From Thermoplasmata archaeon (GTDB taxonomy: Archaea > Thermoplasmatota > E2 > DHVEG-1), in the NCBI GenBank assembly GCA_014894395.1, contig JADBLO010000119.1:1-64000 (forward strand): a stretch of DNA of 64,000 nt. The letters run 5' to 3'. Under the pieces are notes generated by a model that was not told the origin of the DNA, searched no databases, and saw only the letters and a list, made by a program, of their open reading frames with translations. The number at the start of each line of letters is the position of its first letter. Position 1 is the stretch's first letter. A program made the position numbers and the translations under genes. This document shows, in pieces, positions 13,628 through 34,570 of this stretch.

Positions 13628-14098
13628 TTACCTAACAAAATCTTGTATTTCTTTTTGGAGTTTCAAGTACAGATCATCAAGAACCGTTTCTATTTCTTTT
13701 GACAATCCCATTCCATGCGAAACGTCTCGTGGTTGCACCCCAAAAATAACGAGTGTCTCAGGAAGCTCTTTGAGTTCTTGTGATAAACGAAGAAGGTTTA
13801 AAAAATCAGGGTCATGGGTTGACATCATCACCGGTTTTTTCTGACTTTGAATATCTTTCAAACTAAACACTCGGGCCTCACCAGGTCGTCCCTTGAAATC
13901 AACAGCATCAATAAGCAGAACGGTATCAAATTGTGCAAGGAGATGAAGCAGGTTCATCCCGCCTGTGCCGCCATCAATGAATTCAATGTTTTTCGGTAAC
14001 TCTTTTTTTTGTTTTTGTAAGCGCTCAAGCAGAACAATTCCAACCCCATCATCTTTCCGCAGGAGGTTCCCGATGCCAATGACCCCTATCTTCTTCAT
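13628..14098 (-). CDS. NiFe-hydrogenase maturation endopeptidase (HyaD/HycI family)
   Basis: ORF; GIGNLLRKDDGVGIVLLERL...EFIDGGTGGMNLLHLL. Confidence 0.9.
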   Translation of the reverse strand: MKKIGVIGIGNLLRKDDGVGIVLLERLQKQKKELPKNIEFIDGGTGGMNLLHLLAQFDTVLLIDAVDFKGRPGEARVFSLKDIQSQKKPVMMSTHDPDFLNLLRLSQELKELPETLVIFGVQPRDVSHGMGLSKEIETVLDDLYLKLQKEIQDFVR

Positions 14099-14107
14099 AC
14101 GGTTGAA

Positions 14108-15412
14108 TCAGACGAAGGTGACGTCAAGATAGTGCGTAGAGCAGGAGATGCACGGATCGTACGCCCGTACCAGCATCTCTAAGGTGAGCTCTATTTCTTT
14201 CTCAGGTCTAGAAAGAATCTCCGGGACGAGCTGCTCCATATCTTTCTGGATGTTCGCATGGTTCTGATTCGTGGGAATAATACAGTTAGCTTTAGTGCAA
14301 TATCCTTTCGAGTTCAGGGTATAATCATGAACGAGGATCCCCCGGGGTACCTCAACGATGCCGACGCCTCGTCCTGCCTTGGGTTTGATCTTCGCCGGTT
14401 TTTCATCCCGGACACCATTCTCCAGCAACACGTCAATCCAATGAAGAGAGTCCTCAATGTTATGAGCAAACTCAACGAGCTGTGCAATCGTATTCATGAA
14501 CGGGTTGTAATTCATGGGTTTTAACCCAAACATAGACGCGACTTCTTTAGCAGCAGGATGGAGTTGCGAGCTATTCAGGTTGAATCGCGCAAGCGCACCC
14601 ACCATGTAAGAGTCACGCGCATGTTTCGCATATTTCGCGGTGGAGTGAGGAACAACGTATTCTTTCATAATGGATTGATACTCTTTGTAATCAGGGTGTT
14701 TTCCGGTATCTGTTGACGTTATTACTCCATCATACAGTGCATACTCATTCTCAGTGCTTAACGCAATATATTCAGTCTCTCGGGTAAAAGCAGGGAGTCT
14801 GTCAGCAACACTATGTACTGTTCCAGCGACCGTGCTTGTAAGAGTTCTTGCTTCTTCAAGTCGTTCCCGTAACCTTAGAAGTTGTTTTTCCGTGGGAACC
14901 ATTGAGAAACCGCCGACTATGAGTCGAATCGGATGAATAGTCCTGCCACACACCAAATCAGACATCTCGTTAGCGAGGCGATGCAGTTTTACGATAGTCA
15001 GCAACGCATCCGTATGTTTTGTTCCCACAAGGGGAAACACACTACCGACACCAAACAAATCAGGCGCGACAAGATACCCGATATGGAGGATATGGCTTTG
15101 CATGTTTTCTGCGTTAATCGCAAGTCTGCGCAGGATTGCGGTCTGCTCTGTGATGTGAACTCCGAGTGCATCTTCTGTTGCCTTGAGGGATGCAAGAGAA
15201 TGACCAATGGAACAAATCCCACAAATTCTTGAGGTGATCGGGCGAAGTTCATTGTAATTTTGTCCGCGAAGCATCGCCTCAAAGAACCGGGGTGCTTCAA
15301 CAACACGCCATTCCACTTTCTCTATCTTTCCAGCTCTCACATTTACCTCAATATTCCCGTGGCCTTCCACACGAGTGACATGCTCAACATGAATGGAAAA
15401 ATCTTTACTCAT
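14108..15412 (-). CDS. group 3 NiFe hydrogenase large (alpha) subunit
   Basis: ORF 14108..15508; RICGICSIGHSLA and C-terminal DPCISCSTH-YLDVTFV; start chosen at MSKDFSIHVEHVTRVEGHG. Confidence 0.93.
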   Translation of the reverse strand: MSKDFSIHVEHVTRVEGHGNIEVNVRAGKIEKVEWRVVEAPRFFEAMLRGQNYNELRPITSRICGICSIGHSLASLKATEDALGVHITEQTAILRRLAINAENMQSHILHIGYLVAPDLFGVGSVFPLVGTKHTDALLTIVKLHRLANEMSDLVCGRTIHPIRLIVGGFSMVPTEKQLLRLRERLEEARTLTSTVAGTVHSVADRLPAFTRETEYIALSTENEYALYDGVITSTDTGKHPDYKEYQSIMKEYVVPHSTAKYAKHARDSYMVGALARFNLNSSQLHPAAKEVASMFGLKPMNYNPFMNTIAQLVEFAHNIEDSLHWIDVLLENGVRDEKPAKIKPKAGRGVGIVEVPRGILVHDYTLNSKGYCTKANCIIPTNQNHANIQKDMEQLVPEILSRPEKEIELTLEMLVRAYDPCISCSTHYLDVTFV

Positions 15413-16169
15413 CGACACTACACTCCTCTCGACCATAGTTATACATAGTACATCTGCGTCGTATATCCTCATAGGAAAGCTTGTATCGTTCCAGCACTTC
15501 TTTGACACAATCAGCTTCTGCTTTTTTTATTAACCCGCGGCATCCTTCGCAGGTGCTGTTATGAGTTGGACAAATCGCCTTGCATCCCGCCCGGGTAATC
15601 GGACCAAGACAAAATTTCCCTAACTCAAACTGGCAGATATTTTCGTTCTTCTTACATTCCACGCACACGGGGTACGTGGGGATCTCCGGTTTCTTCCCCA
15701 GCACAAGTGCGGTGATCACATGTTTAAACTCATCCCGATCAATCGGGCAACCATGGATGTAATAATCGACAGGGACTACTTCTTTGAGTGCCTTAGTCTT
15801 AAACACATCAAACAGTTCATTGCCCTTGACGTCTGCATTTCCGTACACCTCGTGGAGGACCTCATCAGGCATCCATTGATTTCGTATTTTATTGACCCCA
15901 CCGATCGTCGCGCACGCACCAAGTGCGACCAGAATCTTTGCCTTACTCCGAATGCTGCGCAGGCGTCGCTCATCCATCGGTCGCATAATCGAGCCCTCAA
16001 CAATCGCGATATCATAGGTATCTGAATGTTCTTTCATGACCTCACGGAATGAGACAATATCCACGATCTCAATGAGGTCAAGGATCTCCTCTTCTAAATT
16101 GGCAATCTCCAGTTCGCAGCCTTCACAGTCAGCAAAATCAAACACAGCAACCCGTGGTTTCTGTTTCAT
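15405..16169 (-). CDS. NiFe hydrogenase small (delta) subunit
   Basis: ORF; DCEGCELEIANLEEE..., GACATIGG, Cys-rich C-terminus. Confidence 0.9.
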   Translation of the reverse strand: MKQKPRVAVFDFADCEGCELEIANLEEEILDLIEIVDIVSFREVMKEHSDTYDIAIVEGSIMRPMDERRLRSIRSKAKILVALGACATIGGVNKIRNQWMPDEVLHEVYGNADVKGNELFDVFKTKALKEVVPVDYYIHGCPIDRDEFKHVITALVLGKKPEIPTYPVCVECKKNENICQFELGKFCLGPITRAGCKAICPTHNSTCEGCRGLIKKAEADCVKEVLERYKLSYEDIRRRCTMYNYGREECSVDE

Positions 16170-18109
16170 TCGAACGCCTCCGGTAACGCCTTTATCTCCT
16201 TATAATTGAACACTGGACCTTCTTTGCAGACATACACACCATTAATCTGACAATGACCACATTTGCCAACACCACATTTCATTCGACGCTCTAACGATAC
16301 GATTATATTTTCCTCAGGAATCCCCATGGTGCGCAAACACTGAATCACAAACTTATACATTACCGGGGGGCCAATAACAACGACAATCGTGTTCTGTGAA
16401 TCAAATTTATCCATGCGAACTTTCGGGAACAACGTGGTAATTACCCCAATACAACCACCCCAACATTCATTCGCATCACACTTATCAACAGTCAGTTCAC
16501 ATTGGACGTGCTCAACTTTTTTCCATTGATCAACATCGCTCATGAACAGGATTTCCTTTGGCCGCTTTGCACCATATAAGATAGTGATCTCCTTGAACTT
16601 CCCCCGATTCTTTTTATCAAGTACATAGTTAATGAGAGAACGCATCGGCACCATTCCAGTGCCGCCGGAAGTAAAGATGATGTTTTTTCCCTCAAGTGCT
16701 TTGACATCAAACCCGTTTCCAAGCGGTCCACGGATACCAACCTTATCACCTGGTTTCATTGAAACGAGTTTGGATGTGACGTTACCCACTTTTCGAACCA
16801 TAATTTCAAACGATGGTGTATCACTCGGTGGTGATGACACTCCAAATGGAGCTTCACCATAACCAAACACCGATACTTCGACAAACTGTCCTGCCGCATG
16901 GCCTAAGGGTTTTTTGTCATCAAGTTCAATCTCAAACAGCGTGTCGATCTCACTGCGCACCTCCGCACGTTTTATCGTCGCACTCCTGGGGATATGAATG
17001 ATTCCTTTCTCTGCAGCATCTGTTTTTTGTTTAATGAAGAATCTCCCGGTGTCCTCCTCATGTCCGAAGCTTGCTAGCTCGTTCATCACATCGCACGGGT
17101 CAGCGATATCAGGGAGACATGCGATCCCGCATCGTCCACATCCGACACAGGCGACAAACCCGAATCGTTCAGGGAGATAGTTTCCTTTCCTGTAGAACCG
17201 ATGGCGGTAGCGTTCTTTTGGTTCTTCGCGGAAGACCTCTCCACTGCCGACTTTAGTAAAACCACGGAGCATGCAGCCATCCCATGTACGTATCCGTTGG
17301 CCATTCTTCAGGTTCAATGATACCTCATCGTGGACATCGTAACAGAAACACGTAGGACATACTATCGTGCAAGAGCTGCATTCCATACAGAAATCTGAGC
17401 GTTCTTCCCAGAAAGAATTTGCGTAATTCGCAACAAGAATCGATGACCAGTCTTTCTTATCGACTTTTACTTTTTTCGTATATTTCTTTGCGATGTTGTC
17501 TCGGACGTCTTTAATCTTTTTAATCTCTGCAGAGGTTGCATCCTTGGTGGTTGCATATTTCTTAAGTAAGGTACTTCCTTTTTCAGTGCCCACGGTTACC
17601 GCGTAGGTAGCTCCAAGATCGGTAAGCAACAAATCAAAACCAGTCTCAGTCATGTGTGTTTTCATACTTCCTGCAAAGGATCGCTCTGAGACGTTTTGAA
17701 TATCAACACCTATGATAATGGTGTTATCTCGCCGTTTTTTATAAAAATCATCTTTCGGAGGATCAAGATATTGTGTATCCGTTTGTTGTAGTGCGATGAT
17801 ATCGTAGGGATGCACCCCGATGATTATTCGAGGTTGGTCGTCTATAGTTTCTTTGACTTCAAAGGGTTTCTCAAGCGAGAACTTCATGAGTTGTTCGTAC
17901 TGGGGAAGGAAATATTTTTTTGGCGGAAGAATGGTGACATCGTAGTCTAAAGATAGCTCATCTGCGTCGTTGAGGGTGTCAAAGACATAGCGTTTTCCTT
18001 TTGCTTTCACCCCGACGACATCGTAGGTTTTGTTTTGTAGTAAGGTGTTTACCAATGTTAAAAAATCTTTTTTCGTAATGATTTTTACAGCTTGTTTCAT
18101 CTCAGACAC
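16166..18109 (-). CDS. fused hydrogenase beta (Fe-S) and gamma (FAD/NAD(P)-binding) subunits, sulfhydrogenase/group 3b type
   Basis: Single 647-aa ORF: N-half CMECSSCTIVCPTCFC and CVGCGRCGIACLPDI; C-half ferredoxin reductase-like GPLGNGFDV..FTSGGTGMVPMRSL and CGVGKCGHCQ. Confidence 0.88.
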   Translation of the reverse strand: MSEMKQAVKIITKKDFLTLVNTLLQNKTYDVVGVKAKGKRYVFDTLNDADELSLDYDVTILPPKKYFLPQYEQLMKFSLEKPFEVKETIDDQPRIIIGVHPYDIIALQQTDTQYLDPPKDDFYKKRRDNTIIIGVDIQNVSERSFAGSMKTHMTETGFDLLLTDLGATYAVTVGTEKGSTLLKKYATTKDATSAEIKKIKDVRDNIAKKYTKKVKVDKKDWSSILVANYANSFWEERSDFCMECSSCTIVCPTCFCYDVHDEVSLNLKNGQRIRTWDGCMLRGFTKVGSGEVFREEPKERYRHRFYRKGNYLPERFGFVACVGCGRCGIACLPDIADPCDVMNELASFGHEEDTGRFFIKQKTDAAEKGIIHIPRSATIKRAEVRSEIDTLFEIELDDKKPLGHAAGQFVEVSVFGYGEAPFGVSSPPSDTPSFEIMVRKVGNVTSKLVSMKPGDKVGIRGPLGNGFDVKALEGKNIIFTSGGTGMVPMRSLINYVLDKKNRGKFKEITILYGAKRPKEILFMSDVDQWKKVEHVQCELTVDKCDANECWGGCIGVITTLFPKVRMDKFDSQNTIVVVIGPPVMYKFVIQCLRTMGIPEENIIVSLERRMKCGVGKCGHCQINGVYVCKEGPVFNYKEIKALPEAFE

Positions 18110-19763: not shown

Positions 19764-20291
19764 ATGAGCATCATCGACTTGACTTCTATGGGGGAACCGC
19801 AATCAGATCTGAGAAAAGAACTCAACGATAGACTCACAAAGCTGCAAGACGAAATCTCAGATTATTGTTTTCAATGCGCGAAATGCACCTCAGGCTGTGA
19901 ATCACACAAACTCCTTGAACTTGAGCCGCACAAAATCGTCGCACTTCTGAAACGAGGATTGATCAACGAACTGGTAAACTCAGATGTCATCTGGACCTGT
20001 ATGACCTGCCTAAAATGTAGAGAACGCTGTCCGCAACGCGTCGCACCGGTTGAAATCTTGTTTGCGTTGAAGAATATGGCGGTAGCAAGCGGGAAACAAA
20101 TCCCGGGAAAATACACAGGGATGCTACAATCAATTCTATCCATGGGACTTATCCAAGATATCCAACAGACCACGACTCGTACGAATAAAACCCTGAAACG
20201 AGACGAACTTGGACTCCCTCCTCTTTCAAAACCAATTGACGTTGTCAAGTTTCAAGCAGGAATCATGAAAATCGCGATGGAAAAGGTATAG
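19764..20291 (+). CDS. hdrC: HdrC-like 4Fe-4S subunit
   Basis: ORF; YCFQCAKCTSGC and WTCMTCLKCRERCPQRV. Confidence 0.9.
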   Translation: MSIIDLTSMGEPQSDLRKELNDRLTKLQDEISDYCFQCAKCTSGCESHKLLELEPHKIVALLKRGLINELVNSDVIWTCMTCLKCRERCPQRVAPVEILFALKNMAVASGKQIPGKYTGMLQSILSMGLIQDIQQTTTRTNKTLKRDELGLPPLSKPIDVVKFQAGIMKIAMEKV

Positions 20292-20296
20292 GCACG

Positions 20297-21175
20297 ATGA
20301 AAAAGAAATATGCGTTGTTTCCCGGTTGTTTGATGCCAACAGAGCAGTACGCCTACGAGCTCTCGATCAGAGAAACACTCCCCTTGTTAGATGTTGAACT
20401 TGTTGATGTGGAGGGTTTTTCATGTTGCGGAGAACCCATGAAAAGTGTGAATCAACTTCTTACAGTGTATCTTTCTGCAAGGAATCTGGCGATCGCTGAG
20501 AAGCATCATCTGGACGTTTTTGCCCCCTGTGCGATGTGTCATCTCGCGCTTTCTGAATGTCAGCATATCCTTGAAGAAAATCCAGCGATGAAAGAACGAA
20601 TCAACGGCATGCTTGCTGCTGAGGGTTTAAATTATACCGTGAAACGACAGGTTGTTCATACGGTTGACCTGCTCTATGATCAGGTGGGGATCGAAAAGAT
20701 AAAAGAACATGTGAAAAAACCATTGAACGGGTTAAAGATCGCAGCACATTACGGGTGTCATATCCTTCGTCCCAGTGAAATCGGTCGTCCTGACGATTCT
20801 GAAAACCCGCAGAAAATCGAAGCAATCCTGAAGGCATTGGGTGCTGAACCAGTGGATTATCCTCAGAAACTTGATTGTTGTGGCGCGCCCTTGCTTGCGA
20901 ATCTGCCTGAGTCTGCGTTAACAAAAACAGGGCAGAAACTCCAAGCGATACAAGAACAAGGAATCCAAGGGATGGTTGATGTCTGTCCGTGGTGTCATAA
21001 GATGTTTGATAGCAGACAAACCAAAGCAGGGGAGACCGTGGCTGCAAAACTCGATGTTCCCGTGTTGTATCTGACGCAGTTACTCGGATTAGCGATGGGG
21101 ATAAGTGGTGAGAAACTCGGACTTGAACTGAATCTTAGTCCTGTAGAAAAACTCCAACTTGGAGATGTGAAATAA
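20297..21175 (+). CDS. hdrB: HdrB-like subunit with two CCG domains
   Basis: ORF; FSCCGEPMKS...CAMCHLAL and YGCH...LDCCGAPLL...CPWCH. Confidence 0.92.
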   Translation: MKKKYALFPGCLMPTEQYAYELSIRETLPLLDVELVDVEGFSCCGEPMKSVNQLLTVYLSARNLAIAEKHHLDVFAPCAMCHLALSECQHILEENPAMKERINGMLAAEGLNYTVKRQVVHTVDLLYDQVGIEKIKEHVKKPLNGLKIAAHYGCHILRPSEIGRPDDSENPQKIEAILKALGAEPVDYPQKLDCCGAPLLANLPESALTKTGQKLQAIQEQGIQGMVDVCPWCHKMFDSRQTKAGETVAAKLDVPVLYLTQLLGLAMGISGEKLGLELNLSPVEKLQLGDVK

Positions 21176-23134
21176 ATGCGTCGCATCGGAGTGTTTGTCT
21201 GTCATTGCGGAATCAACATCGCACAAACCGTTGACGTCGAAGCACTTTCCGAGTACGCAAGTCATCTGAACGGTGTGGTAGTCACAAAACATTACAAGTA
21301 TATGTGTTCTGATGTGGGTGCAACACTGATCAAAGACACGATTAAAGAATTCAAACTCGATGGTGTCGTAATCGCGTCATGTTCTCCTCGTATGCATGAA
21401 CAAACATTCCGACGGGTTGCAAATGACGGCGGTGTGAACCCCTATAGGGTTGAGATTTCTAATATTCGTGAGCAATGCTCCTGGGTGCATAGCAATAAAG
21501 AACAAGCAACGGAGAAAGCGAAGTTTTTAGTTCGGAGTGCGGTGTCTAAAGCACTGTCGCTTGAACCATTGAAACCATCAACATTGAAGGTTATTCCAGA
21601 GGCGTTAGTGATTGGCGGAGGAATCGCAGGGATCCAGACATCCCTTGATCTCGCCAACGATGGATTCAAAGTTCACCTCGTGGAACGAGAACCAAGTATC
21701 GGCGGCCATATGGCGCAACTGGATAAAACCTTCCCAACCCTTGATTGTTCCTCCTGTATTCTTACTCCTAAGATGATGGAAGTTGCAAACCATAAGAACA
21801 TCGAACTATTAAGTTACTCGGAAGTTGCCAGTATCGAAGGAAGCATCGGGAATTACACGGTGAAAATAAGGAAGAAACCACGATATATTGATGTTGACAA
21901 GTGTACAGGATGCGGTGATTGTGCCACCGCTTGTCGACTCAAAGATCGAATTGTCAGTGAATTTAATCAAGGGATGGGGAAACGAGGCGCAGCCTACATG
22001 CCGTTCCCTCAAGCGGTACCATTGAAATATGTTATTGACGACAAGAAATGTCTGTTTTTAACGAAAGGGAAATGCGGGGATGAACCTCTCTGTAAAAAAG
22101 CATGTGCACAAGATGCCATTAACTTTGATCAGAAAGAAGAAATAGTGGAACGTAAGGTCGGTGCTATCGTGGTTGCAACCGGGTATGACGTCATGGATCC
22201 CACCGCGGTTTACGAGTATGGCTACGATGTCTCTCCTGATGTTATTACCACCTTGGAGCTGGAACGATTGATCAGCTCCTCAGGACCAACCAAAGGGGAA
22301 ATCTTGCGACCATCAAACCAGCAGAAACCAAAGAGTGTCACCTTCATTCTCTGTGTCGGCTCTCGTGATGAGACCCAGTGTACCTGGTGCTGCCGAATCG
22401 GGTGTATGACCGCATTAAAACAAGTCTATCTGCTTCGCGAGAAACTCGGGGAAGACGTTGAGATTAACCTCTGCTACAATGACCTACGCTCCTTTGGAAA
22501 AGGCTATGAGGAATTCTACCGTAAAGTCCGAGGTCTCCATACGAACATGTTCCGTGGCCGTCCCTCTGAAGTACGGACTATGAAAGAGTATCTAAAGATT
22601 GATATTTTTGATACGACAACCAATAAGTTGTTTGAAATAAAAACCGATATGGTTGTTCTTGTTCCCGCGATGATGCCACGAACCGATGCTACTGAGTTTG
22701 CACGACTCCTCCATTTGACCTTAAGTGGTGACGGGTTTTTCCTTGAGGCCCACCCGAAGCTTCGCCCGGTTGACACGTTTGTCAACGGTATATTTATCGC
22801 AGGATGCTGCCAAGCACCAAAAGATATTCAAGACACTGTTTCCCAGGCAAGTGCGGCTGCATCACGTGCAGCAACAATTTTGTCCCAAGAAGAACTGGAG
22901 ATAGACCCGTTAATTGCGATGGTTGATGAGGATGTATGCACCGGGTGTGGTATCTGCGTGGAAGTCTGTCCGTACGAGGCACGTACGTTGAATGAAAGGA
23001 AACGGATCGCTGAGGTGAATGACGCCTTGTGCACTGGTTGTGGCGGCTGTATCGCCGCCTGTCCCAGCAATGCGTCGATTCATAAGAATTTCACTAAGAA
23101 ACAATTACTGAATATGGTTGACGACATCATGTGA
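21176..23134 (+). CDS. hdrA: HdrA-like FAD/4Fe-4S subunit (single unit)
   Basis: [42 protein letters not shown], two C-terminal ferredoxin motifs. Confidence 0.93.
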
Positions 23135-23144
23135 GTGTTACAAA

Positions 23145-24074
23145 ATGAATGATGAAAAGAACCCTTCGATGACCTCTGCGAAACATGGCTCCGTGTTGGT
23201 CCTCGGTGGTGGTATTGCCGGCATTCAATCAGCATTGGATCTTGCCGATGCAGGATTTAAAGTCTACCTCGTTGAAAAACAACCAAGCATCGGTGGGACT
23301 ATGCCCCAGTTAGATAAAACATTCCCAACCAATGACTGTGCCATGTGCATTCTCGCCCCAAAACTCGTTGCTACGGGCCGACATCCAAATATCGAACTCA
23401 TTACCTACTCTGACCTGAAAAAAATAGAAGGTGTGCCTGGTAACTTTACCGTTACCATCAACAAAAAAGCACGATCTGTTGATGAGGTTCTCTGCAATGG
23501 GTGCGGGTTGTGCGTAGAACACTGTCTCGTCCGATTCAAACCACAGAAACCAAAGCACTATGATGCAAAAAAAGCAGTTGAGAAAAACGACCTTAGGACA
23601 GTAGACGACATCATAAACACCTATGGGAAAACATCTGATGCGCTCATCCCTATTATGCAGGCGATAAACGAACATTATAATCACCTTCCTAAGAACATTC
23701 TTTGTTATGTGGCTCAAGAGTTAGATGTTCCTCTTGCACAGGTGTACCATGTCGCAACCTTCTATACCTCGTTTTCTTTGAAACCACGGGGAAAGCACAC
23801 CATAAAAGTGTGTATGGGTACTGCCTGTCATGTGCGTGGGAGCCCTAGAGTACTTGATGAGATACAGCGTCTTCTTAAGATAGAGCCTGGTGAGACGACT
23901 GATGATGATATGTTTACTTTGGAGACCGTGAACTGCCTTGGTGCCTGTGCATTAGGGCCTGTGGTGGTTGTTGATGAGAAATATTACATGGTAAAACCTG
24001 GTGAGTTTGGCAAGATTCTTAATACTATCACCCTTGAGAAGAGTTCTCCTCTTGTCGCAGAGGTGAAGCAATGA
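23145..24074 (+). CDS. HdrA N-terminal FAD half fused to NuoE-like [2Fe-2S] thioredoxin-fold domain
   Basis: ORF 23118..24074; [20 protein letters not shown]...[12 protein letters not shown] then NuoE ...[32 protein letters not shown]...[12 protein letters not shown]. Confidence 0.88.
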
Positions 24075-26005
24075 GCAGGAAGGATGCAGCTTCATCGAAG
24101 ACTACCTTCTCACCTGATGAGATTATACAGAAGTTAAAACTGAACCCGCTTCACTCGCTACAAGAACTAGAGGATCTCATTCATAAACTCATAAAAGAAA
24201 GAGAGAACGATAAAAGAAGGACGGTGGTGGTTGCTGGTGGCACCTGTGGTCGTGCTCGTGGATCACAGGATATCTTGCATACGGTGCGAGATGAACTTGA
24301 TAAAGCAGGGTTAGAGAAAAGTGTTACTCTCAGAGCCAGTGGTTGTCTCGGGTATTGTGATCAGGAGCCTCTCATCCTTATCCTCCCTGAACGAATATTT
24401 TACCCAAGAGTTGCTCCTTCCCAAGTTTCAGAAATTGTCACAAAGACAGCGAAAAATGGTACGGTCATAGAAGATCTCTTGTGGAAGGATCCTGGGAGTG
24501 GGAAGCGTATTTCCTGCATTGATGACCTTCCTTTTTATAAAAAACAAGTGCGTGTTATTTCTGGGAATAACGAGTATATTGATCCTGGTAATATTCTTGA
24601 TTATCTTGCGATGGGTGGATATTCTGCGTTAATGAACATATTACGGCAGCAGACACACCCGGAAGACATTGTTGGGATGGTTACAAAATCAGGCTTGAGA
24701 GGTCGTGGTGGCGCTGGTTTTTCCACAGGGAAGAAATGGGAGTCAGCACGGAAAGCTCCTTCGATAGACGGGATAAAATATGTGATCTGTAATGCTGATG
24801 AGGGGGATCCTGGGGCATATGCGAATCGTAGTCTTCTCGAGGCGAATCCCCATAGCGTCTTAGAGGGCATGATTATTGGTGCGTATGCGGTGGGTTCAAA
24901 CCAAGGGTATATCTATGTGCGAGCAGAATATCCGTTGGCCATCCAATATTTTGATCTTGCAATACGAAGCGCGGAAGCACTGGGGCTGCTGGGAGAGAAC
25001 ATATTGAACTCCGGATTCTCTTTTCATGCGAAAATCGCGAAGGGTGGAGGAGCATTTGTTTGTGGAGAATCCACGGCGCTTATGGCATCTATTGAAGGTA
25101 AAGCTGGTGAGCCGCGGGTTAAGCACATTCATAGTACGACACGAGGGTTATTTGAACGACCGACCGTGCTGAATAATGTAGAGACATGGGCAAACGTTCC
25201 TCTCATTGTCAACAGGGGTGCTGAGTGGTATAAAGAAATAGGTACCGAGGGAAGCAAAGGAACCAAAATATTTTCTATTGTTGGGAAGGTCAACAACACC
25301 GGTCTTGTTGAAGTTCCTATGGGAGCAACGATTCGAGAGATAGTCTATGAGATGGGTGGTGGGATAAAAGAAGGCAAGAAATTTAAGGCAGTACAAATCG
25401 GTGGGCCTTCCGGTGGCTGTATCCCAGAGCAACATCTCAATCTTCCCATTGACTACGACAGTCTTAGCGAGTCAGGAGCGATGATGGGCTCTGGCGGTAT
25501 GATTGTGATGGATGAGAACACCTGCATGGTGGATGTCGCAAAATATTTTGTGAATTTCTTAAAAAATGAATCCTGTGGGAAATGCACCTCCTGCCGTGAG
25601 GGCCTTGTTCAGATGCATGGGATGTTGACCGATATCACGGAAGGCAGAGGTCGAAAAGAAGATATCGAACTGTTAGAAGAACTAGCAGAGATCGTAAAGG
25701 ACGCATCACTATGCCAATTAGGAATCACTGCTCCAAATCCGATCCTGACGACCCTGCGGTATTTCAGAGATGAATATGAGGCACACATCAGAGACAAGAA
25801 ATGTCCTGCTCATGTATGCAAACCCTTGATTACATTTACTGTTGATGCAAAAAAATGCGTCGGCTGCCAATTGTGCGCCAAGAAATGCCCCGTAGGAGCA
25901 GTGTCAGGTAAACCGAAACAGGCTCATGCCATTGATCAGAAGACCTGTATTAAATGCGGTATTTGTCATGATGCCTGCAAGTTTGATGCGCTGGAGGTGC
26001 AGTAA
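24071..26005 (+). CDS. NuoF/HndC-like NAD(P)/FMN/Fe-S subunit with C-terminal 2x[4Fe-4S]
   Basis: [47 protein letters not shown]-terminal [23 protein letters not shown]. Confidence 0.92.
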
Positions 26006-29000
26006 ATGGTTCTTGTGACCATTGATTCGAAAGAATACGAAGCAGCTCCAGATGAGACTGTGCTAGAGGTATGCAAGAAAAATAATATCTTCATACCAAC
26101 GTTGTGTCACCATCCGTCCATTACACCATATAGTTCATGCAGACTCTGCATCGTGGAGGTTACTCAGAAAGGCTGGGCGAAGCTGACCGCATCATGCAGT
26201 TTACCCGTAAAAGATGGAATGGTCATTGCGACAAACTCCCCACGCGTTCAAAGCGGAAGAAAAATTCTTATGGAACTCTACCTCGCCCGCTGTCCCACAT
26301 CAGAACAGATCAAAGAACTCGCCAGTAAACTAGGAGTACAGAAAACCAGGTTTAAAACCTACACTGATCCAGACAATAAGTGTATTTTATGCGGGTTGTG
26401 TATGCGGGTCTGCGATGAAGTAATGAAGGTGAAAGCGTTAGGGTTTGCTCACCGTGGTGCAAAGAGAGAAATCGCGGTCCCCTTTCAAGAGTTTTCGCAC
26501 GTCTGTATGACCTGTGGAGCATGTGCGTTTGTATGCCCGACACAATGTATTAACCTCTCTAAGTTAAGTCCGAACAAACCTGAGCCTCTCACCAGTGACT
26601 TTGATGCAGGGATGGCGCAACGAGGAGCCATTTACACTCAATTCCCTCAGGCGATACCAAACGTCCCGGTTATCGATAAAGAAGCATGCATGTACGCACT
26701 GAACGGTACGTGCAAATCCTGTGAGAACTTCTGTGATAAAGGGGCCCTGAAATACGACCAGGAGGACAAAGAAATCAAGGTCGATGTTGGCGCCGTGATT
26801 ATCTCCCCTGGATTTGACAAATATGTGCCGCCAAAGGGAGATAGTTACGGATATCAGGTTTATCCAAATGTGTTCACTAGTATTGAATTTGAACGGATGC
26901 TTTCCTCATCAGGACCATACCAGGGGCATTTAGCCCGTATTTCCGATGGACAACCCCCGAAAAAAATCGCATGGCTGCAGTGCATTGGCTCCCGTGATGA
27001 AAGCTGCGACCGACGGTATTGCTCTTCAGTCTGCTGCATGTATGCAACCAAGGAAGCAATCATCGCAAAGGAACACCTCCCCGGGGTTGATACCCATATC
27101 TATTTCATGGACATGCGTTCGTTTGGGAAGGATTTTGAAAAATACTATGAACGGGCAAAAGACGAGTACGGGGTCGTCTATCGAAGATGCCGGATCCCCC
27201 AAGTTGAACAAGACAGAAAGACAAAACACCTTAACATTAGATACGTGGATGACGTTGGTACCTTACAGAAAGAATCCTACGATATGGTTGTCCTCTCTGT
27301 GGGTTTACAACCCTGTAAAGAACTTGCTGAGATGAGTAACATTCTTGAGGTGAATCTGAATCGTTATGGATTCATTGAAACCGATCCATACGACCAAGTC
27401 AGAACATCACGAAAAGGTATCTACGCGTCAGGGACAGTAACCGAACCAAAAGACATCCCAGAGAGCGTTACTCAAGCCTCGGCTGCCGCTGTCGAAGCGG
27501 CAAAGGATATCGCTGCGCTACGAGGAACTGAGATCACCGAGAAGGTATACCCTGATGAAAAAAATGTGAGCAACGAACTTCCACGAATCGGCGTGTTTGT
27601 CTGTCACTGTGGTATAAATATCAGCGGCGTTGTTGATGTGAAAAAGGTCGTCGCGGATGCAAAGGCATTACCATATGTTGTATACGCGGACGATAGCCTC
27701 TATACCTGTTCCCAGGATTCCAATGAAAAAATAAAGGAGAAAATCAAAGAACTTGGACTGAATCGCATTGTAATTGCATCATGTACACCGCGAACCCATG
27801 AGCCATTGTTTCAGGATACACTCCGTGAAGGAGGGCTCAATCCTCATCTTTTCGAGATGGCTAATATTCGTGATCAGAATTCATGGGTGCATAAAAACAA
27901 TCCACAGAGTTCGACAGAAAAAGCTATTGATGCGGTGCGGATGGCGGTTGCAAAAGCATCGGATTTGTCCCCTATCCACCATTCGAAAATCCCTGTTGTT
28001 AACCATGCACTTATTATTGGTGGCGGGATCGCAGGGATGCATGCAGCATTGTCCATTGCAGACCAAGGATATGAAACAACCCTTGTGGAAAAAGAACCAA
28101 TACTCGGTGGTCATCTAAGAGACATTTATCTTGGCATCAATGGGGAGAAACCACAAGAGCATCTGAACGAGACAATTGCACGAGTAAAGAGCCATTCGAA
28201 AATCCACGTGTTCACCGATACGACGGTTACGAACATTTCTGGGTACGTCGGGAATTTTAAGTCCCAGTTGCTAACAAAAGAGAAAAAGACACCTACCGAA
28301 GTTGAACATGGAGTAACTGTGGTAGCAACCGGCGGTCTTCCCTACAAACCTGTTGAATATCAGTACGAAAAAAGCGATGATATCATCACCCAGATCGAGT
28401 TTGAAAAAGACCTCTATGAGGAAAAACCGTATCTTAAAAATCTAAAGGAAGTCGCGATGATTCAATGTGTCGGCTCACGAAACGATGATCATCCGTATTG
28501 TAGCCGGGTGTGCTGCTCGCAGGCGCTGAAAAACGCACTTCGCTTCAAAGAGCTGAATCCTGATGCAACTGTCTATGTGTTGTACCGCGATATTCGGACC
28601 TACGGGTTCCGTGAAGACCTGCTGTATCAAAAGGCTCGGAAGAACGGGATTTTATTTATCCGATATAACGATGATGATGAGCCAAAAGTGACGCTTGAGG
28701 AGGGAAAACCTTTAGTGAAAACAAAGGAACATATCCTCAATAGAGAGCTGCATTTGCATCCCGATAAACTCGTGCTTAGCACCGGGATCATCCCGCAGGA
28801 TAACACTCCGCTTGCGCAGCAATTGAAGGTACCATTAAACGAGGACTTGTTCTACTCGGAAGCTCATGTGAAGTTACGTCCGATTGATTTCTCTGCTGAC
28901 GGGATTTTCCTCTGCGGCCTTGCGCATTCACCACGATTCATCGAAGAATCTATTCTTCAAGCAAAGGCAGCTGGCGCCCATGCAGCAACAATTCTTTCGA

Positions 29001-29251
29001 AGAAGTATCTTGAGACCAAAGGTAACATCGCTCGAGTGATATCCCGGAATTGTGCTGGGTGCCAACTCTGCGTGGAGATGTGCCCGTATGACGCGATCAC
29101 ATTTGATGAAGAAAAGAAAGTGGTGGTTATTAATGAAATTCTGTGTCAGGGGTGTGGCGCGTGTTGTGTTGTATGCCCAAGTGGTGTTTCGCAGCAGAAT
29201 ACGTTTACGAAACGTCAGATTGTTTCTATGATTGATGCGTGTCTGGAGTAA
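26006..29251 (+). CDS. NuoG-like N-terminal domain fused to HdrA C-half and a second HdrA unit
   Basis: 1081-aa ORF; N-term 2Fe-2S SSCRLCIVEV + CILCGLCMRVC; then DAGMAQRGAIYTQFPQAIP..CIGSRDE; then [12 protein letters not shown] and LIIGGGIAGMHAALS, CAGCQLCVEMCPY. Confidence 0.9.
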   Translation: MVLVTIDSKEYEAAPDETVLEVCKKNNIFIPTLCHHPSITPYSSCRLCIVEVTQKGWAKLTASCSLPVKDGMVIATNSPRVQSGRKILMELYLARCPTSEQIKELASKLGVQKTRFKTYTDPDNKCILCGLCMRVCDEVMKVKALGFAHRGAKREIAVPFQEFSHVCMTCGACAFVCPTQCINLSKLSPNKPEPLTSDFDAGMAQRGAIYTQFPQAIPNVPVIDKEACMYALNGTCKSCENFCDKGALKYDQEDKEIKVDVGAVIISPGFDKYVPPKGDSYGYQVYPNVFTSIEFERMLSSSGPYQGHLARISDGQPPKKIAWLQCIGSRDESCDRRYCSSVCCMYATKEAIIAKEHLPGVDTHIYFMDMRSFGKDFEKYYERAKDEYGVVYRRCRIPQVEQDRKTKHLNIRYVDDVGTLQKESYDMVVLSVGLQPCKELAEMSNILEVNLNRYGFIETDPYDQVRTSRKGIYASGTVTEPKDIPESVTQASAAAVEAAKDIAALRGTEITEKVYPDEKNVSNELPRIGVFVCHCGINISGVVDVKKVVADAKALPYVVYADDSLYTCSQDSNEKIKEKIKELGLNRIVIASCTPRTHEPLFQDTLREGGLNPHLFEMANIRDQNSWVHKNNPQSSTEKAIDAVRMAVAKASDLSPIHHSKIPVVNHALIIGGGIAGMHAALSIADQGYETTLVEKEPILGGHLRDIYLGINGEKPQEHLNETIARVKSHSKIHVFTDTTVTNISGYVGNFKSQLLTKEKKTPTEVEHGVTVVATGGLPYKPVEYQYEKSDDIITQIEFEKDLYEEKPYLKNLKEVAMIQCVGSRNDDHPYCSRVCCSQALKNALRFKELNPDATVYVLYRDIRTYGFREDLLYQKARKNGILFIRYNDDDEPKVTLEEGKPLVKTKEHILNRELHLHPDKLVLSTGIIPQDNTPLAQQLKVPLNEDLFYSEAHVKLRPIDFSADGIFLCGLAHSPRFIEESILQAKAAGAHAATILSKKYLETKGNIARVISRNCAGCQLCVEMCPYDAITFDEEKKVVVINEILCQGCGACCVVCPSGVSQQNTFTKRQIVSMIDACLE

Positions 29252-29257
29252 GAGAAT

Positions 29258-29707
29258 ATGAGTGAAGAAAAAAAGGACCATAAGAAGGAAGACTTCGAAC
29301 CAAAGATCGTCGGGTTCCTCTGCAACTGGTGTAGTTACGCGGGTGCTGACCTTGCTGGGACGAGCCGTATCCAGTATCCGCCGAACGTCAGGATTATCCG
29401 AGTCATGTGCTCAGGGTCTGTTGATTCTATGTACATTCTGCGTGCATTGCTCGAGGGTGCTGACGGCGTGTTTGTCGGCGGCTGTCACCCGGGTGATTGT
29501 CATTACATTGATGGGAATTACAAGGCGCGACGACGTATGGTGTTACTCGAAAATATCCTCGGTACATTAGGCTTAGAGAAAGAGCGAGTGTGGCTGCGAT
29601 GGATCTCTGCATCTGAAGGTCAGAAGTTTGCTGATACAATGAAAGAAATGGCTGAGGCGGTGAGGAAACTAGGACCCAGTCCAATCGCTAAACACTGGAA
29701 TCTTTAA
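29258..29707 (+). CDS. mvhD: MvhD-like [2Fe-2S] electron-transfer subunit
   Basis: [42 protein letters not shown]...[10 protein letters not shown]. Confidence 0.92.
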
Positions 29708-29723: not shown

Positions 29724-30845
29724 ATGACGCACAAAGTAATCAAGGTCAAGGACAATGACGTAGTAGGATCAACCAATGATTTCTTGAGAAATCTCCTTTC
29801 ATCAGGGAAAATCCAGGCGTTATTGGTCCCGCAAAATACTCCATCGAAAAAAGTTGCATTTCCTGTGCTGATTTCTGATCCGAAGAAGCTTCACGCTGAT
29901 ATTGTTGCCCCGATTCTTCCTGCGTCTACCGCTACAATTGTGTCGAAGATGACCAAGGTGCAGCCACCATCAAAACCCATCGGGGTTGTCATGCGGTCTT
30001 GTCAGATCCGAGCCCTTATCGAACTGGTAAAGTTGAATCAAGCGAGCCTTACGAACATCGTGATCATCGGAGTCGATTGCCCTGGTACGTTTCCAACAAA
30101 CACGTATACCGAGTTCCCTGAAAAGAAAACACCAACGCAGTTCCTACTTGAAGCCTGGACGAAGAAATCCGATGAAGCAGAAAAATATTTCCGTTCGGCC
30201 TGCCGTGTCTGCAAAGACCCGATTCCGACAAACGCAGATATTATTCTTGGATTCTATGGTGCCGATATTGAAAAAGAAATTATAGTTGAGGCACACTCCG
30301 AGGTAGGAAAGAACATTCTGAAAGAATTACCCCTCGAGGATGAAGAAGAAGGGAAAAGTCGGGAGAAAGCAGTCAAAGAACTCCGTGAAGAAAAGGCCAA
30401 GAAACGTGCGGTATTCCTCAAAGAAAAAGAGGGACTCAAAGGAATTGATAAGGTCTCTGAGTTTTTTGATAAATGCGTCAACTGTCATAACTGCCGGCAG
30501 GCATGTCCGATTTGTTACTGTAAAGAGTGTTTGTTTGACTCATCAGTGTTTGACGCGGAGGCGTACAAGTTCCTTCGCAGAGCAGAAATCAAAGGGTTGT
30601 TTAAAATGCCGAACGATGCGTTGTTATTCCAGCTCGGACGAATGAACCATATGATTCTTTCTTGTGTGGAGTGTGGGTTATGTGAACAGGCATGCCCCAA
30701 TAATATTCCGCTCATGGATGTGTTTATCCCCGCTGCAGAGAACGCGCAGAAAGAATTCGACTATCAGCCCGGGAAGGATACCAAAGAGAAGATCCCGATG
30801 ATTGTGTATCGGGAGGATGAGTTCTTGGAGGTAGGAGAAAAATAA
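29724..30845 (+). CDS. FrhB/FdhB-like (coenzyme F420 hydrogenase/dehydrogenase beta) Fe-S subunit
   Basis: ORF; GVVMRSCQIRALIELVKL..., CVNCHNCRQACPICYC, CVECGLCEQACPN. Confidence 0.8.
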   Translation: MTHKVIKVKDNDVVGSTNDFLRNLLSSGKIQALLVPQNTPSKKVAFPVLISDPKKLHADIVAPILPASTATIVSKMTKVQPPSKPIGVVMRSCQIRALIELVKLNQASLTNIVIIGVDCPGTFPTNTYTEFPEKKTPTQFLLEAWTKKSDEAEKYFRSACRVCKDPIPTNADIILGFYGADIEKEIIVEAHSEVGKNILKELPLEDEEEGKSREKAVKELREEKAKKRAVFLKEKEGLKGIDKVSEFFDKCVNCHNCRQACPICYCKECLFDSSVFDAEAYKFLRRAEIKGLFKMPNDALLFQLGRMNHMILSCVECGLCEQACPNNIPLMDVFIPAAENAQKEFDYQPGKDTKEKIPMIVYREDEFLEVGEK

Positions 30846-30846
30846 T

Positions 30847-31512
30847 ATGGATGTCATTGATTCCCGCAAGGTTGACCCGAGTTTCAAGTTTCAGATAGCA
30901 AAAGAAGAGGGCGGCGAAGGTATTCTGAAATGCTTTGCGTGTGGTGCCTGTACCGCTCGTTGCCCGGAGATGGACGTCAAACCAGAGTGGAACGCACGAG
31001 TCGTCATCCGGAAAGCACTGCTTGGCCTGAAAGAAGAAGTGCTGACAAGTGAATTTTTCTGGATCTGCAGCGCCCATTATCGTTGTTTGGAGAAATGTCC
31101 GCAAAAGGTGAATGTCAAAGAGGTGATGAATGCGGTGCGGGACGCCCGGCTTCTTGAGGAACAAACCGAGGACGTCACAGGGAAAAAGACGAAGAAGTAC
31201 CTTGATTTGGATTTCAAATACACAATTACGCAGAGCAAGGCTGGGAAAGACCTCTATGAGTGTTTCTCCTGCGGTACGTGTACAGCAGGATGTCCGGAGC
31301 GGGAGCTTGATTCGCTTTATTCACCACGCAAAGTGATCAAGAATGTGTTACTTGGGATGAAGGACCCTGTGTTCTGTAATAAGTTTGTTGAAATTTGTTC
31401 GTCTCATCATCGGTGTTTCACTCAATGTCCACAAGGGGTGGAGATCCCGAAGTTGATGAATGCGATTAAAAACATTGCGATGAAAGAAGGATATTCTCGA
31501 ACAACAAAATAG
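30847..31512 (+). CDS. tandem double HdrC-like protein
   Basis: ORF; two HdrC units: CFACGACTARCPE..CSAHYRCLEKCPQKV and CFSCGTCTAGCPE..CSSHHRCFTQCPQGV. Confidence 0.85.
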   Translation: MDVIDSRKVDPSFKFQIAKEEGGEGILKCFACGACTARCPEMDVKPEWNARVVIRKALLGLKEEVLTSEFFWICSAHYRCLEKCPQKVNVKEVMNAVRDARLLEEQTEDVTGKKTKKYLDLDFKYTITQSKAGKDLYECFSCGTCTAGCPERELDSLYSPRKVIKNVLLGMKDPVFCNKFVEICSSHHRCFTQCPQGVEIPKLMNAIKNIAMKEGYSRTTK

Positions 31513-31519
31513 AAGGCCT

Positions 31520-34500
31520 ATGGTAAAAAAATCTGATACGATCGGAGCTGTTGCTGTTGTCGGCGGTGGCATCGCCGGGGTACAGGCAGCTCTCGATCTC
31601 GCTGACATGGGATACAAAGTCTATGTGCTCGAGAAATCACCGACTATCGGTGGTGTCATGGCCCAGCTCGATAAGACATTCCCGACAAATGATTGTTCGA
31701 TGTGTATTCTGTCCCCAAAGCTTGTCGATTGTGCTCGTCATCAAAATATTGAGATTCTTACGAACGCGGTGGTAGAAGGTATCGAAGGGAGCCCAGGGAA
31801 TTTTACTGTAAAGGTCCTGAAGAAACCGCGATATATTGACCTGGAGAAATGTACCTCGTGCGGGAGCTGTGAGGCGGTCTGTCCGGTTTTGCTGCCGAAT
31901 GCGTTTGAGTATGGTCTTGTGAAACGCAAGGCTATCTACAAGCCGTTCCCGCAGGCGATTCCGAATGCGTATGTGATCGATAAGGAAGGCGATGGGAAGC
32001 ATCGCGGCTGTGTTGATTGCATGCGGTGTGTGACAGAGTGTAAGTCTGGTGCGATTAACCATGAACAGAAACCAGAGCAACTCACCTTTCAAGTTGGCGC
32101 GGTGATTATCGCTGCTGGTTCTCCACCGTTTGACCCGGTGGTGAAACCAGAGTTTGGGTACAAAAAATACAAGAATGTGCTGACGAGTGTGGAGTTTGAA
32201 CGAATCTTATCAGCATCGGGGCCAACGCAGGGGAAGATTCTGCGACCGAGCGACCAGAAGCATCCGACGAAGGTCGCCTGGGTGCATTGTGTTGGCTCCC
32301 GTGACGCCTCCGTGAACCACGAGTATTGTTCTGCGATGTGCTGTATGTATACCGCAAAGGAAGCAATCATTGCCAAGGAGCATGCTTCCGATATTGAGCC
32401 GACGGTGTTCTACATCGATATCCGTTCGTATGGCAAGGATTTTGATAAATACATTAATCGAGCAAAAAAAGACTACGGACTTCGTTATGTTCGGTCACGG
32501 ATCTCTGAGATTACTGAAGACCCGAAAACAAGGGACCTTTTCATAAAATACGAGGATGATAAAGGAGACTTCAAAGAAGAAACATATCATCTGGTGGTAC
32601 TATCAGTCGGGTTGTGTGGCGCTGGTGAACGACGCAACGAGTTAATGGACACCCTCGGGTTTGATGCCAATGAGTTCAAATATGTGCGGACGAGTGCGGA
32701 CGATCCAGTGGTTATCAAACCAGGGATTTTTGTCGCAGGCTCGTTCCTGGAACCGCAGGCGATCCCTGAGTCGGTGATGCAGGCATCTGCGGCAGCGGCC
32801 AACGCAGCTGCGTTGTTGAAGGATTCACGGGGCACGTTGGTAAAAGAAAAAAAGTATCCCGCGGAGAAGGATGTGTCTGCTGAGACGCCTCGTATTGGGG
32901 TGTTTCTCTGTCACTGCGGCATTAATATTGGTGGATATGTGGATGTCCCTGCAGTGGCTGAATATGTAAAATCACTAGAGGATGTCACCTTTGTCGAGGC
33001 GAACATTTACACCTGTTCTGAGGATACGCAGAAGAAGATTGTCGATGCGATTAAGAAATACGATTTGAACCGGATTTTAGTTGCTGCCTGTACTCCTCGG
33101 ACGCATGAGCCGTTGTTCCAGAAAAGCTTACGGGATGCGGGGTTGAATCCGTATTTGTTGGAGATGACGAATATTCGGGAGCAGTGTTCCTGGGTGCATA
33201 TGGATGAGCCAGCCAAGGCAACGGAAAAAGCAAAGCAGTTAATCGCAATGACGGTTGCAAAGACTCGGTTTTTACAACCGATTCAAGAAGCTGAGATCCC
33301 AGTTGTACAGAAGGCGTTGGTCATTGGTGGCGGGATCGCAGGCATGACTGCGGCCTTGTCTCTTGCAGATCAAGGATATGAGACTGTTTTGGTAGAAAAA
33401 GAACGCCAGCTTGGTGGGTACTTACATAAGGTGTACTATACCGTTGATGGTCTTGACATCCCACGATTACTAAAGAAGATGACAGAGAAGGTTCAGAAAC
33501 ATCCTCTTATAAAAGTGCATACCGGCTCACAGGTGAAATCCTTAAAAGGGTATGTGGGAAGCTACGAATCTGAGATTCAAACACCGACAGAGGTCGTACC
33601 CTTTTCTCATGGCGTGATCATTGTGACTATTGGTGCTGACGAATACAAACCACACACGTATCATTACGGGAAAGACCCCCGGGTGTCAACGCAATCAGAG
33701 CTGGAAAAGGACCTTAGTGAAAGCACAAAAGAAGATATCCATGATGGGGAGACATTCGTCATGATCCAGTGCGTGGAATCCCGTGATGAGAAACGGCCGT
33801 ACTGTAGCAGGATTTGTTGCATGCAGGCGGTAAAGAACGCCCTGAAGATCAAGGAGTTGAACCCACGAGCTGAAGTGTTTCTTTTGTATCGCGATTTAAT
33901 GACCTACGGGTTTAAAGAAAAATTCTATAAAGACGCACGGGAAAAAGGTGTGATGTTCCTGCAGTATGATCCTGAGAAAAAACCAGAGGTTGAAGCGAAG
34001 AATGGGCTTGTCGTGAAGATTCATGAACCGATGCTGGGAGAACTGTTAAAGATACCGACTGATCATCTTATTCTTTCGACCGGACTACAGCCGAATCCTG
34101 ACAACCCGGTGATAGGCAAGCTCCTCAAGGTCCCGGTGAACGACGACGGATTCTTCCTTGAGGCACATGTGAAACTGCGACCTGTCGATTTTTCAACGCG
34201 TGGTGTGTTTGTCGCGGGGAACTGCCATGTGCCGAAGTTTATCAGTGAATCGATTTATCAGGCGCAGGCTGCTGCAGCGCGTGCAGCAACGATTCTGTGT
34301 AAACCTACTTTGAAGGCAGAGCCGAATGTCGCGTTTGTTGATGATGATCTCTGCAGCGGGTGCAGTATCTGTATTTCAGTATGTCCCTATAACGCGATTG
34401 AGCGTGTCGAAGAAGAAATCAACGGCAAAAAAGTGATACATGCGAAGGTCAACGAAGGGTTGTGCCAAGGATGCGGGACATGTGTGAGCGCGTGTCCAAG

Positions 34501-34570
34501 CAGTGCGATTCAGCAGCGTGGATTTAAGGATAAACAACTGCTTCCAATGATTGATGAAATCTCGTGTTGA
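31520..34570 (+). CDS. tandem HdrA-HdrA fusion protein
   Basis: 1016-aa ORF; VVGGGIAGVQAALDLADMGY..CTSCGSCEAVCP..FPQAIP then [32 protein letters not shown]-terminal ferredoxin motifs. Confidence 0.9.
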   Translation: MVKKSDTIGAVAVVGGGIAGVQAALDLADMGYKVYVLEKSPTIGGVMAQLDKTFPTNDCSMCILSPKLVDCARHQNIEILTNAVVEGIEGSPGNFTVKVLKKPRYIDLEKCTSCGSCEAVCPVLLPNAFEYGLVKRKAIYKPFPQAIPNAYVIDKEGDGKHRGCVDCMRCVTECKSGAINHEQKPEQLTFQVGAVIIAAGSPPFDPVVKPEFGYKKYKNVLTSVEFERILSASGPTQGKILRPSDQKHPTKVAWVHCVGSRDASVNHEYCSAMCCMYTAKEAIIAKEHASDIEPTVFYIDIRSYGKDFDKYINRAKKDYGLRYVRSRISEITEDPKTRDLFIKYEDDKGDFKEETYHLVVLSVGLCGAGERRNELMDTLGFDANEFKYVRTSADDPVVIKPGIFVAGSFLEPQAIPESVMQASAAAANAAALLKDSRGTLVKEKKYPAEKDVSAETPRIGVFLCHCGINIGGYVDVPAVAEYVKSLEDVTFVEANIYTCSEDTQKKIVDAIKKYDLNRILVAACTPRTHEPLFQKSLRDAGLNPYLLEMTNIREQCSWVHMDEPAKATEKAKQLIAMTVAKTRFLQPIQEAEIPVVQKALVIGGGIAGMTAALSLADQGYETVLVEKERQLGGYLHKVYYTVDGLDIPRLLKKMTEKVQKHPLIKVHTGSQVKSLKGYVGSYESEIQTPTEVVPFSHGVIIVTIGADEYKPHTYHYGKDPRVSTQSELEKDLSESTKEDIHDGETFVMIQCVESRDEKRPYCSRICCMQAVKNALKIKELNPRAEVFLLYRDLMTYGFKEKFYKDAREKGVMFLQYDPEKKPEVEAKNGLVVKIHEPMLGELLKIPTDHLILSTGLQPNPDNPVIGKLLKVPVNDDGFFLEAHVKLRPVDFSTRGVFVAGNCHVPKFISESIYQAQAAAARAATILCKPTLKAEPNVAFVDDDLCSGCSICISVCPYNAIERVEEEINGKKVIHAKVNEGLCQGCGTCVSACPSSAIQQRGFKDKQLLPMIDEISC

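Follow-up and report, generated by a model that had tools for sequence, protein, structure and literature searches.

The HdrA subunit of methanogens contains an inserted ferredoxin domain, described as the low-potential electron exit to free ferredoxin, and a C-terminal ferredoxin fed by MvhD, and the members of a tandem HdrA complement each other with respect to Cys197 and the N-terminal cluster domain (PMC9012536). In ANME-1 and Bathyarchaeota, an NfnB (GltD) domain is inserted in the ferredoxin domain (PMC9012536, HdrA 9-11), a form termed type III HdrA in PMC12054007, which makes no mention of Nuo. The Bfu family is defined, in PMC9304861, by the domain set of its BfuB subunit; the same paper describes the histidine ligand of the B2 cluster as absent from non-bifurcating homologues and proposes bifurcation centres in series for Bam, with separate subunits. 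Here we analyze a stretch of 64,000 nucleotides from a Thermoplasmata archaeon (GCA_014894395.1, contig JADBLO010000119.1, positions 1 to 64,000; the window), in which the hdrA sequence of an Hdr operon is split by NuoE/F/G-like genes. The genes at 23145-29251 probably encode one composite enzyme, with BfuABC threaded through the ferredoxin domain of the first HdrA, the fold rebuilt from two polypeptides, and the HdrA flavin wired to the Bfu core. The insertion of NfnB in this domain is already published. For HdrA split by Nuo or Bfu genes we found no prior description in the open PMC literature; an earlier description elsewhere is possible.

The split HdrA and the type of its cassette

The genes involved and their parts are listed below.

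23145..24074, plus strand: chain A, in which NuoE/BfuC follows the HdrA flavin adenine dinucleotide (FAD) half as a fusion; 33 aligned sequences share this architecture
23187..23531, plus strand: HdrA segment of chain A, with the GGGIAG FAD motif, the Cys194/Cys197 equivalents (TND-C-AM-C) and the first ferredoxin motif
24071..26005, plus strand: NuoF/BfuB, with a thioredoxin-like 2Fe-2S part, a flavin mononucleotide (FMN) domain, SLBB, NADH_4Fe-4S and two C-terminal 4Fe-4S motifs
26006..29251, plus strand: chain C, consisting of NuoG-N/BfuA, the rest of the first HdrA and a second HdrA
26006..26560, plus strand: BfuA part of chain C, with a 2Fe-2S site (C34, C45, C48, C64) and two 4Fe-4S motifs (C126-136, C167-177)
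26594..27520, plus strand: remainder of the first HdrA, with the second ferredoxin motif (C228, C236, C239, C243), K349 (the Lys409 equivalent) and the C-terminal FAD half
27575..29248, plus strand: second HdrA of chain C, with an N-terminal cluster domain, a FAD domain and a C-terminal ferredoxin

The first gene more likely starts at ATG 23145, because TTG 23118 overlaps the upstream hdrA. Residues 24-138 of the open reading frame (ORF) beginning at 23118 align with residues 9-123 of the intact tandem HdrA encoded downstream at 31520 (62% identity, 1e-44), and its residues 163-303 form a NuoE domain (PF01257, 3e-48). Residues 1-185 of the 26006 product are NuoG-like, with Fer2_4 and two 4Fe-4S motifs, and residues 167-1077 align with residues 111-1012 of the 31520 product (48%, 818 bits). 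HdrA proper runs from about residue 197, matching residues 130-1012; owing to a match between the last NuoG 4Fe-4S motif and the first ferredoxin motif of HdrA, the alignment itself begins earlier. The HdrA sequence breaks off at about 23531 and picks up again at about 26594 and is not a continuous single polypeptide, and chains A and C together tile the intact tandem HdrA save about six residues. The sequence-only reading had placed the breakpoints at ~23.53 and ~26.59 kb, between an HdrA FAD half that passes into NuoE and a NuoG start from which HdrA resumes near residue 195, and had suggested end-to-end tiling as a check; all of this is borne out by the alignments.

The FAD-binding Rossmann motif of HdrA (GGGxAG) occurs in chain A, and chain C has it once more in its second HdrA, whose FAD domain lacks both the inserted ferredoxin and Cys197. 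The same reading had named two findings that would contradict it, neither of which was obtained: the first HdrA segment of the 26006 product has no first Rossmann motif of its own, resuming at HdrA position 254 (NCBIfam HdrA models match at 254-558), and the HdrA part of the 23118 product is not a complete unrelated NAD(P)/FAD domain, since the HdrA models match it only at positions 139-272.

The cassette is located between the two cysteine motifs of the inserted ferredoxin domain; this domain is present with both of its four-cysteine motifs, spread over two chains. The equivalent of Cys197 (Cys194, Cys197, and Lys409 are numbered as in 5ODC HdrA) is found in chain A and the N-terminal cluster domain in chain C. 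The motif 1 cysteines and the Cys194/197 equivalents are invariant in 33 chain A sequences, with the FAD motif nearly so, as are the motif 2 cysteines, spaced C-x7-C-x2-C-x3-C, and the Lys409 equivalent in 21 chain C sequences. Because the two motifs of a classical 2[4Fe-4S] domain share cysteines, both clusters would take ligands from both chains. With HdrABC-MvhAGD of methanogens (5ODC) the locus shares the HdrA domains, Cys197, Lys409, HdrB, HdrC, and MvhD, whereas its operon has no hydrogenase subunits, methyl-coenzyme M reductase (MCR) was not found in its ~93%-complete genome, and its HdrA is duplicated and split.

The proposal of a nuoEFG cassette inside a tandem hdrA was correct as to an internal NuoE/F/G-like cassette but not as to its type. 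Gene 2 (24071-26005) has the complete BfuB set, namely PF01512 (51K/FMN), PF10531 (SLBB), PF10589 (NADH_4Fe-4S), and PF00037/PF12838 (ferredoxin-type), these Pfam matches being taken as equivalents of the InterPro set in PMC9304861. The B2 ligands that were mapped, H572, C578, and C583 (H-x5-C-x4-C), are invariant in all 19 of 19 split-locus BfuB sequences. Chain A supplies the thioredoxin-like 2Fe-2S domain of BfuC (PF01257), and chain C the 2Fe-2S domain (PF13510) and two 4Fe-4S motifs of BfuA; the NuoG N5-type histidine cluster (H-x3-C-x2-C-x5-C) was found in none of the 21 chain C sequences. Complex I NuoEFG was rejected as the identity of the cassette, given the B2 histidine and the missing NuoG histidine cluster. 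Judged by domains and ligands, the cassette is a BfuABC (HydABC-type) module and not the NADH module of Complex I. The NuoG-like part resembles Type 2 in the scheme of PMC9304861, the group that includes Bam. The shared features with Bfu/HydABC as described there are thus the BfuC, BfuB, and BfuA parts, the domain set, the B2 histidine, and a Type 2-like cluster content of BfuA; the difference is that, in the window, both BfuC and BfuA carry a fused HdrA segment, a form unmentioned in the sections of PMC9304861 that were consulted.

Recurrence and exchange of the cassette

The 318-residue HdrA-NuoE fusion was used as the query against 84,980 species genomes. Of the 78 loci returned, about 36 have the fusion (L009-L044), so the architecture that the sequence-only reading had suggested searching for does recur. 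The fusion loci belong to Thermoplasmatota, WOR-3, Cloacimonadota, KSB1, Aminicenantes, Sumerlaeota, Spirochaetales, Fibrobacterota, Dehalococcoidia, Desulfobacteraceae, and others, and relatives include metagenome-assembled genomes (MAGs) of Thermoplasmata. The gene order HdrA-NuoE, NuoF, NuoG-HdrA is observed wherever the contig is long enough. In several bacterial loci (L022, L023, L025, L027, and L038), nuoF is separated from nuoG-HdrA by genes for CBS-HATPase, PHP, HATPase, and small proteins. These genes extend the interruption of hdrA to ~5-6 kb, as the insertion of an entire operon would predict.

The HdrA FAD half also occurs as a free-standing gene of ~136-137 codons that stops just after the first ferredoxin motif, in Desulfobacteria (L183, L184, L185, L190, and L192) and in WOR-3 (L046); it was not located in L186 and L191. 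A free-standing FAD half would make little sense unless it joined chain C, and it supports a two-chain HdrA. The genes of the five Desulfobacteria loci have an in-frame TGA precisely where the codon for Cys197 would be, which is likely to encode selenocysteine (TNDCAM-U). An in-frame TGA is likewise found at this position in L188, an unsplit tandem HdrA in a Bam-like context, and the tandem HdrA of L182 is broken there.

Fusions of NuoF to an NfnB domain were also observed: one in L038, and one of 1054 residues in the window's own genome (L125, G000:C47, ~59.5-62.7 kb), beside separate NuoE and NuoG. NuoF ORFs of similar length are present in relatives.

The operon around the split gene contains the following further members.

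19764..20291, plus strand: HdrC-like subunit with two 4Fe-4S motifs, the conserved first gene of the operon
20297..21175, plus strand: HdrB-like subunit with two CCG domains (PF02754)
21176..23134, plus strand: uninterrupted single HdrA, aligning end to end with 5ODC HdrA (E 3e-214)
29258..29707, plus strand: MvhD/FlpD 2Fe-2S subunit (PF02662, 7e-57)
29724..30845, plus strand: FrhB/FdhB-like iron-sulfur flavoprotein (PF04432)
30847..31512, plus strand: duplicated HdrC-like subunit
31520..34570, plus strand: uninterrupted tandem HdrA, used as the control

The operon layout is HdrC-HdrB-HdrA-slot-MvhD-FrhB-HdrC2-tandem HdrA, where the slot is filled either by the Bfu split or by an NfnB-inserted HdrA of ~1500 residues. 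Within the genus of the window, the slot holds the Bfu split in three genomes and the NfnB form in five, and a further genome is truncated by the end of a contig. The proteins of the window had no match to the GltD/NfnB domain. Both forms have an NAD(P)H-type module in the same ferredoxin domain and occupy the same slot in congeners, but one is a single polypeptide with one NfnB domain, whereas the window has a three-gene Bfu module and HdrA in two chains. The entry points also differ, Bfu following motif 1 directly and NfnB ~20-25 residues further on. Additional NfnB-inserted HdrAs of ~1660-1670 residues are encoded away from the operon slot in L121 and L206.

The modules have been exchanged within nearly identical surroundings. 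For instance, L016 (Bfu) and L072 (NfnB) share ~94% DNA identity to either side of the modules, and the switch points fall within hdrA, at ~2540 and ~6060 of L016. The window and the genome G046 are ~84-86% identical outside and ~54-77% over most of 23.2-28.8 kb; in the comparison with G050, identity is mostly 95-99% at 21.2-23.4 kb and 96.6% from 27.7 kb, and 44-79% in most of the cassette. Conversely, the cassette is closer than the flanks in LFW-68_2 (L009; 92-97% vs mostly 80-89%). Bfu-split and NfnB forms are interleaved in the HdrA trees, and a single clade of split-form BfuB was rejected by the approximately unbiased (AU) test (p-AU 3e-6), for a group that was not chosen blind and has some long branches. 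A single origin of the cassette was rejected on this ground. The backbone of the window gene is nearer to the NfnB-inserted HdrAs of relatives (~69-85%, depending on the segment) than to HdrA of the 31520 type (~45-62%). Given these identities and the trees, we rejected the idea that the cassette had been inserted locally into a duplicate of the 31520 tandem gene. The earlier idea of a tandem hdrA opened on the spot thus gives way to a widespread architecture, exchanged here as an allele against NfnB-inserted HdrA.

Recombination in the hdrA flanks would be the simplest account of this exchange. Chimeric contigs could mimic single cases, such as that of G050, whose contig ends in nuoF, but hardly all of them. 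We see about even chances that the inserted ferredoxin domain serves generally as a socket, in which NfnB or multi-gene Bfu modules were repeatedly inserted and then exchanged between genomes through the hdrA flanks, the Bfu form drawing its bifurcating flavin site and clusters from two polypeptides, with two bifurcation centres in series.

A proposed two-chain enzyme and the alternatives

In the proposed composite enzyme, chain A would contribute the FAD Rossmann motif, Cys197, and the first ferredoxin motif, and chain C the second ferredoxin motif, Lys409, and the other half of the FAD domain. Cys197 of chain A should also complete the N-terminal cluster domain in the second HdrA fused to chain C. 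Since the ferredoxin domain is covalently joined to both BfuC and BfuA, the HdrA flavin would be in direct electron exchange with the Bfu core (NAD(H), ferredoxin). The C-terminal ferredoxin port would be served by MvhD and the FrhB-like subunit, and the disulfide port by HdrB/HdrC. Two bifurcation centres, the HdrA flavin and the Bfu core, would then be connected in series via the split ferredoxin domain, and the whole would most likely be a double bifurcation/confurcation machine that couples NADH and ferredoxin to a non-methanogenic disulfide. It could run toward disulfide-driven formation of ferredoxin and NADH, or toward disulfide reduction driven by NADH and ferredoxin. The sequence-only reading had NAD(P)H oxidation feeding a bifurcating core; its sites that need completion in trans are retained here, but the feeding is just one possible direction, because the cassette occupies the low-potential exit of methanogens (PMC9012536).

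The composite enzyme is supported by the tiling of the intact HdrA, by the invariance of site residues that lie on separate chains, by the Bfu signatures, by the position of NfnB in the same ferredoxin domain in orthologous operon slots, and by the port functions given in PMC9012536 and PMC12054007. Foldseek matched chain C to the HdrA structures 5ODC and 8RVU (E ~1e-49). Several observations weigh against it. For chain A, Foldseek found NuoE-type chains only, among the matches listed. The AlphaFold2 single-chain models have a mean predicted local distance difference test score (pLDDT) of 75.1 and 73.6, but in chain C alone residues 120-257, the junction, are mostly below 50, and the predicted template modelling score (pTM) of chain A alone is 0.47. 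The C-x7-C spacing at the start of the second motif suggests that one cluster may differ from that of methanogen HdrA. Finally, MCR alpha and CofD were not found in the window's genome (G000, ~93% complete). Hdr, MvhD, and FrhB-like genes are present in that genome.

A simpler division of labour, in which NuoEFG is a plain diaphorase that feeds NAD(P)H electrons to HdrA as the sole bifurcating site, would fit the NuoE-like chain A, the FMN/NADH domain of the NuoF-like gene 2, and the proposal in PMC12054007 that NADH replaces ferredoxin as the mid-potential donor in NfnB-inserted HdrA. We regard it as unlikely, though worth keeping in mind, because gene 2 retains ferredoxin-type C-terminal clusters of its own, has the entire BfuB domain set, and carries the B2 histidine, reported in PMC9304861 to be missing from non-bifurcating homologues. 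Alternatively, the HdrA halves could be relics without a flavin site, a mere scaffold placing the Bfu module beside the second HdrA. The poorly modelled junction agrees with this, but relics would hardly have kept a nearly invariant FAD motif, invariant ligand cysteines, and an invariant Lys409 equivalent in 21-33 diverse sequences, or a FAD half as a gene of its own with TGA at the Cys197 position, and we consider this reading improbable.

It is more improbable still that Bfu and Hdr are two independent enzymes without electron exchange, joined by a chance gene fusion. The Bam operon L182, where tandem HdrA and Bfu-like subunits are separate proteins, and the free Bfu operons in congeners (L156) point that way; however, both HdrA ends are covalently bound to Bfu subunits through ~20-residue linkers in dozens of lineages, and another NAD(P)H module uses the same HdrA domain. 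An assembly or binning chimera, also envisaged in the sequence-only reading, was rejected and has almost no probability left: nearly all data come from MAGs or draft genomes, and the contig of G050 does break inside nuoF, but the three-part order is the same in loci from many projects, ~36 of them independent and one in a single-contig chromosome assembly (L011, CP070712.1), and both chains are strongly conserved.

Relation to Bam and neighbouring genes

Like Bam-Bfu, the class II benzoyl-CoA reductase complex, the composite enzyme has a single operon that combines tandem HdrA with MvhD and Bfu-like subunits. The Bam-type operon L182 encodes an aldehyde oxidoreductase (AOR)-like subunit, a CCG protein, tandem HdrA, MvhD, and separate NuoE/F/G, and its Bfu genes do not split HdrA. 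In contrast, there is no AOR-like gene among the genes of the window operon, and its HdrA is not whole. Membership in Bam was rejected on these two grounds.

If the enzyme works as we suggest, it would be a natural case of an enzyme that functions from two chains although a multi-gene operon interrupts the sequence coding for one of its domains. The low-potential port of HdrA would be re-pluggable, the same operon in nearly identical DNA accepting NfnB or Bfu. The role of the inserted ferredoxin domain would become testable, as would the series coupling of HdrA and Bfu, which has so far been proposed only for Bam. At this place, the annotations of many genomes are likely to show Complex I genes and a truncated HdrA, and metabolic reconstructions of uncultured archaea and bacteria would be misled by them.

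Upstream of the Hdr operon and divergent from it, a sulfhydrogenase-like [NiFe] hydrogenase operon was found on the minus strand (13628-18109), encoding the large and small subunits, an NAD/FAD-binding plus Fe-S subunit, and a maturation protease. A malic enzyme gene is located between the two operons.

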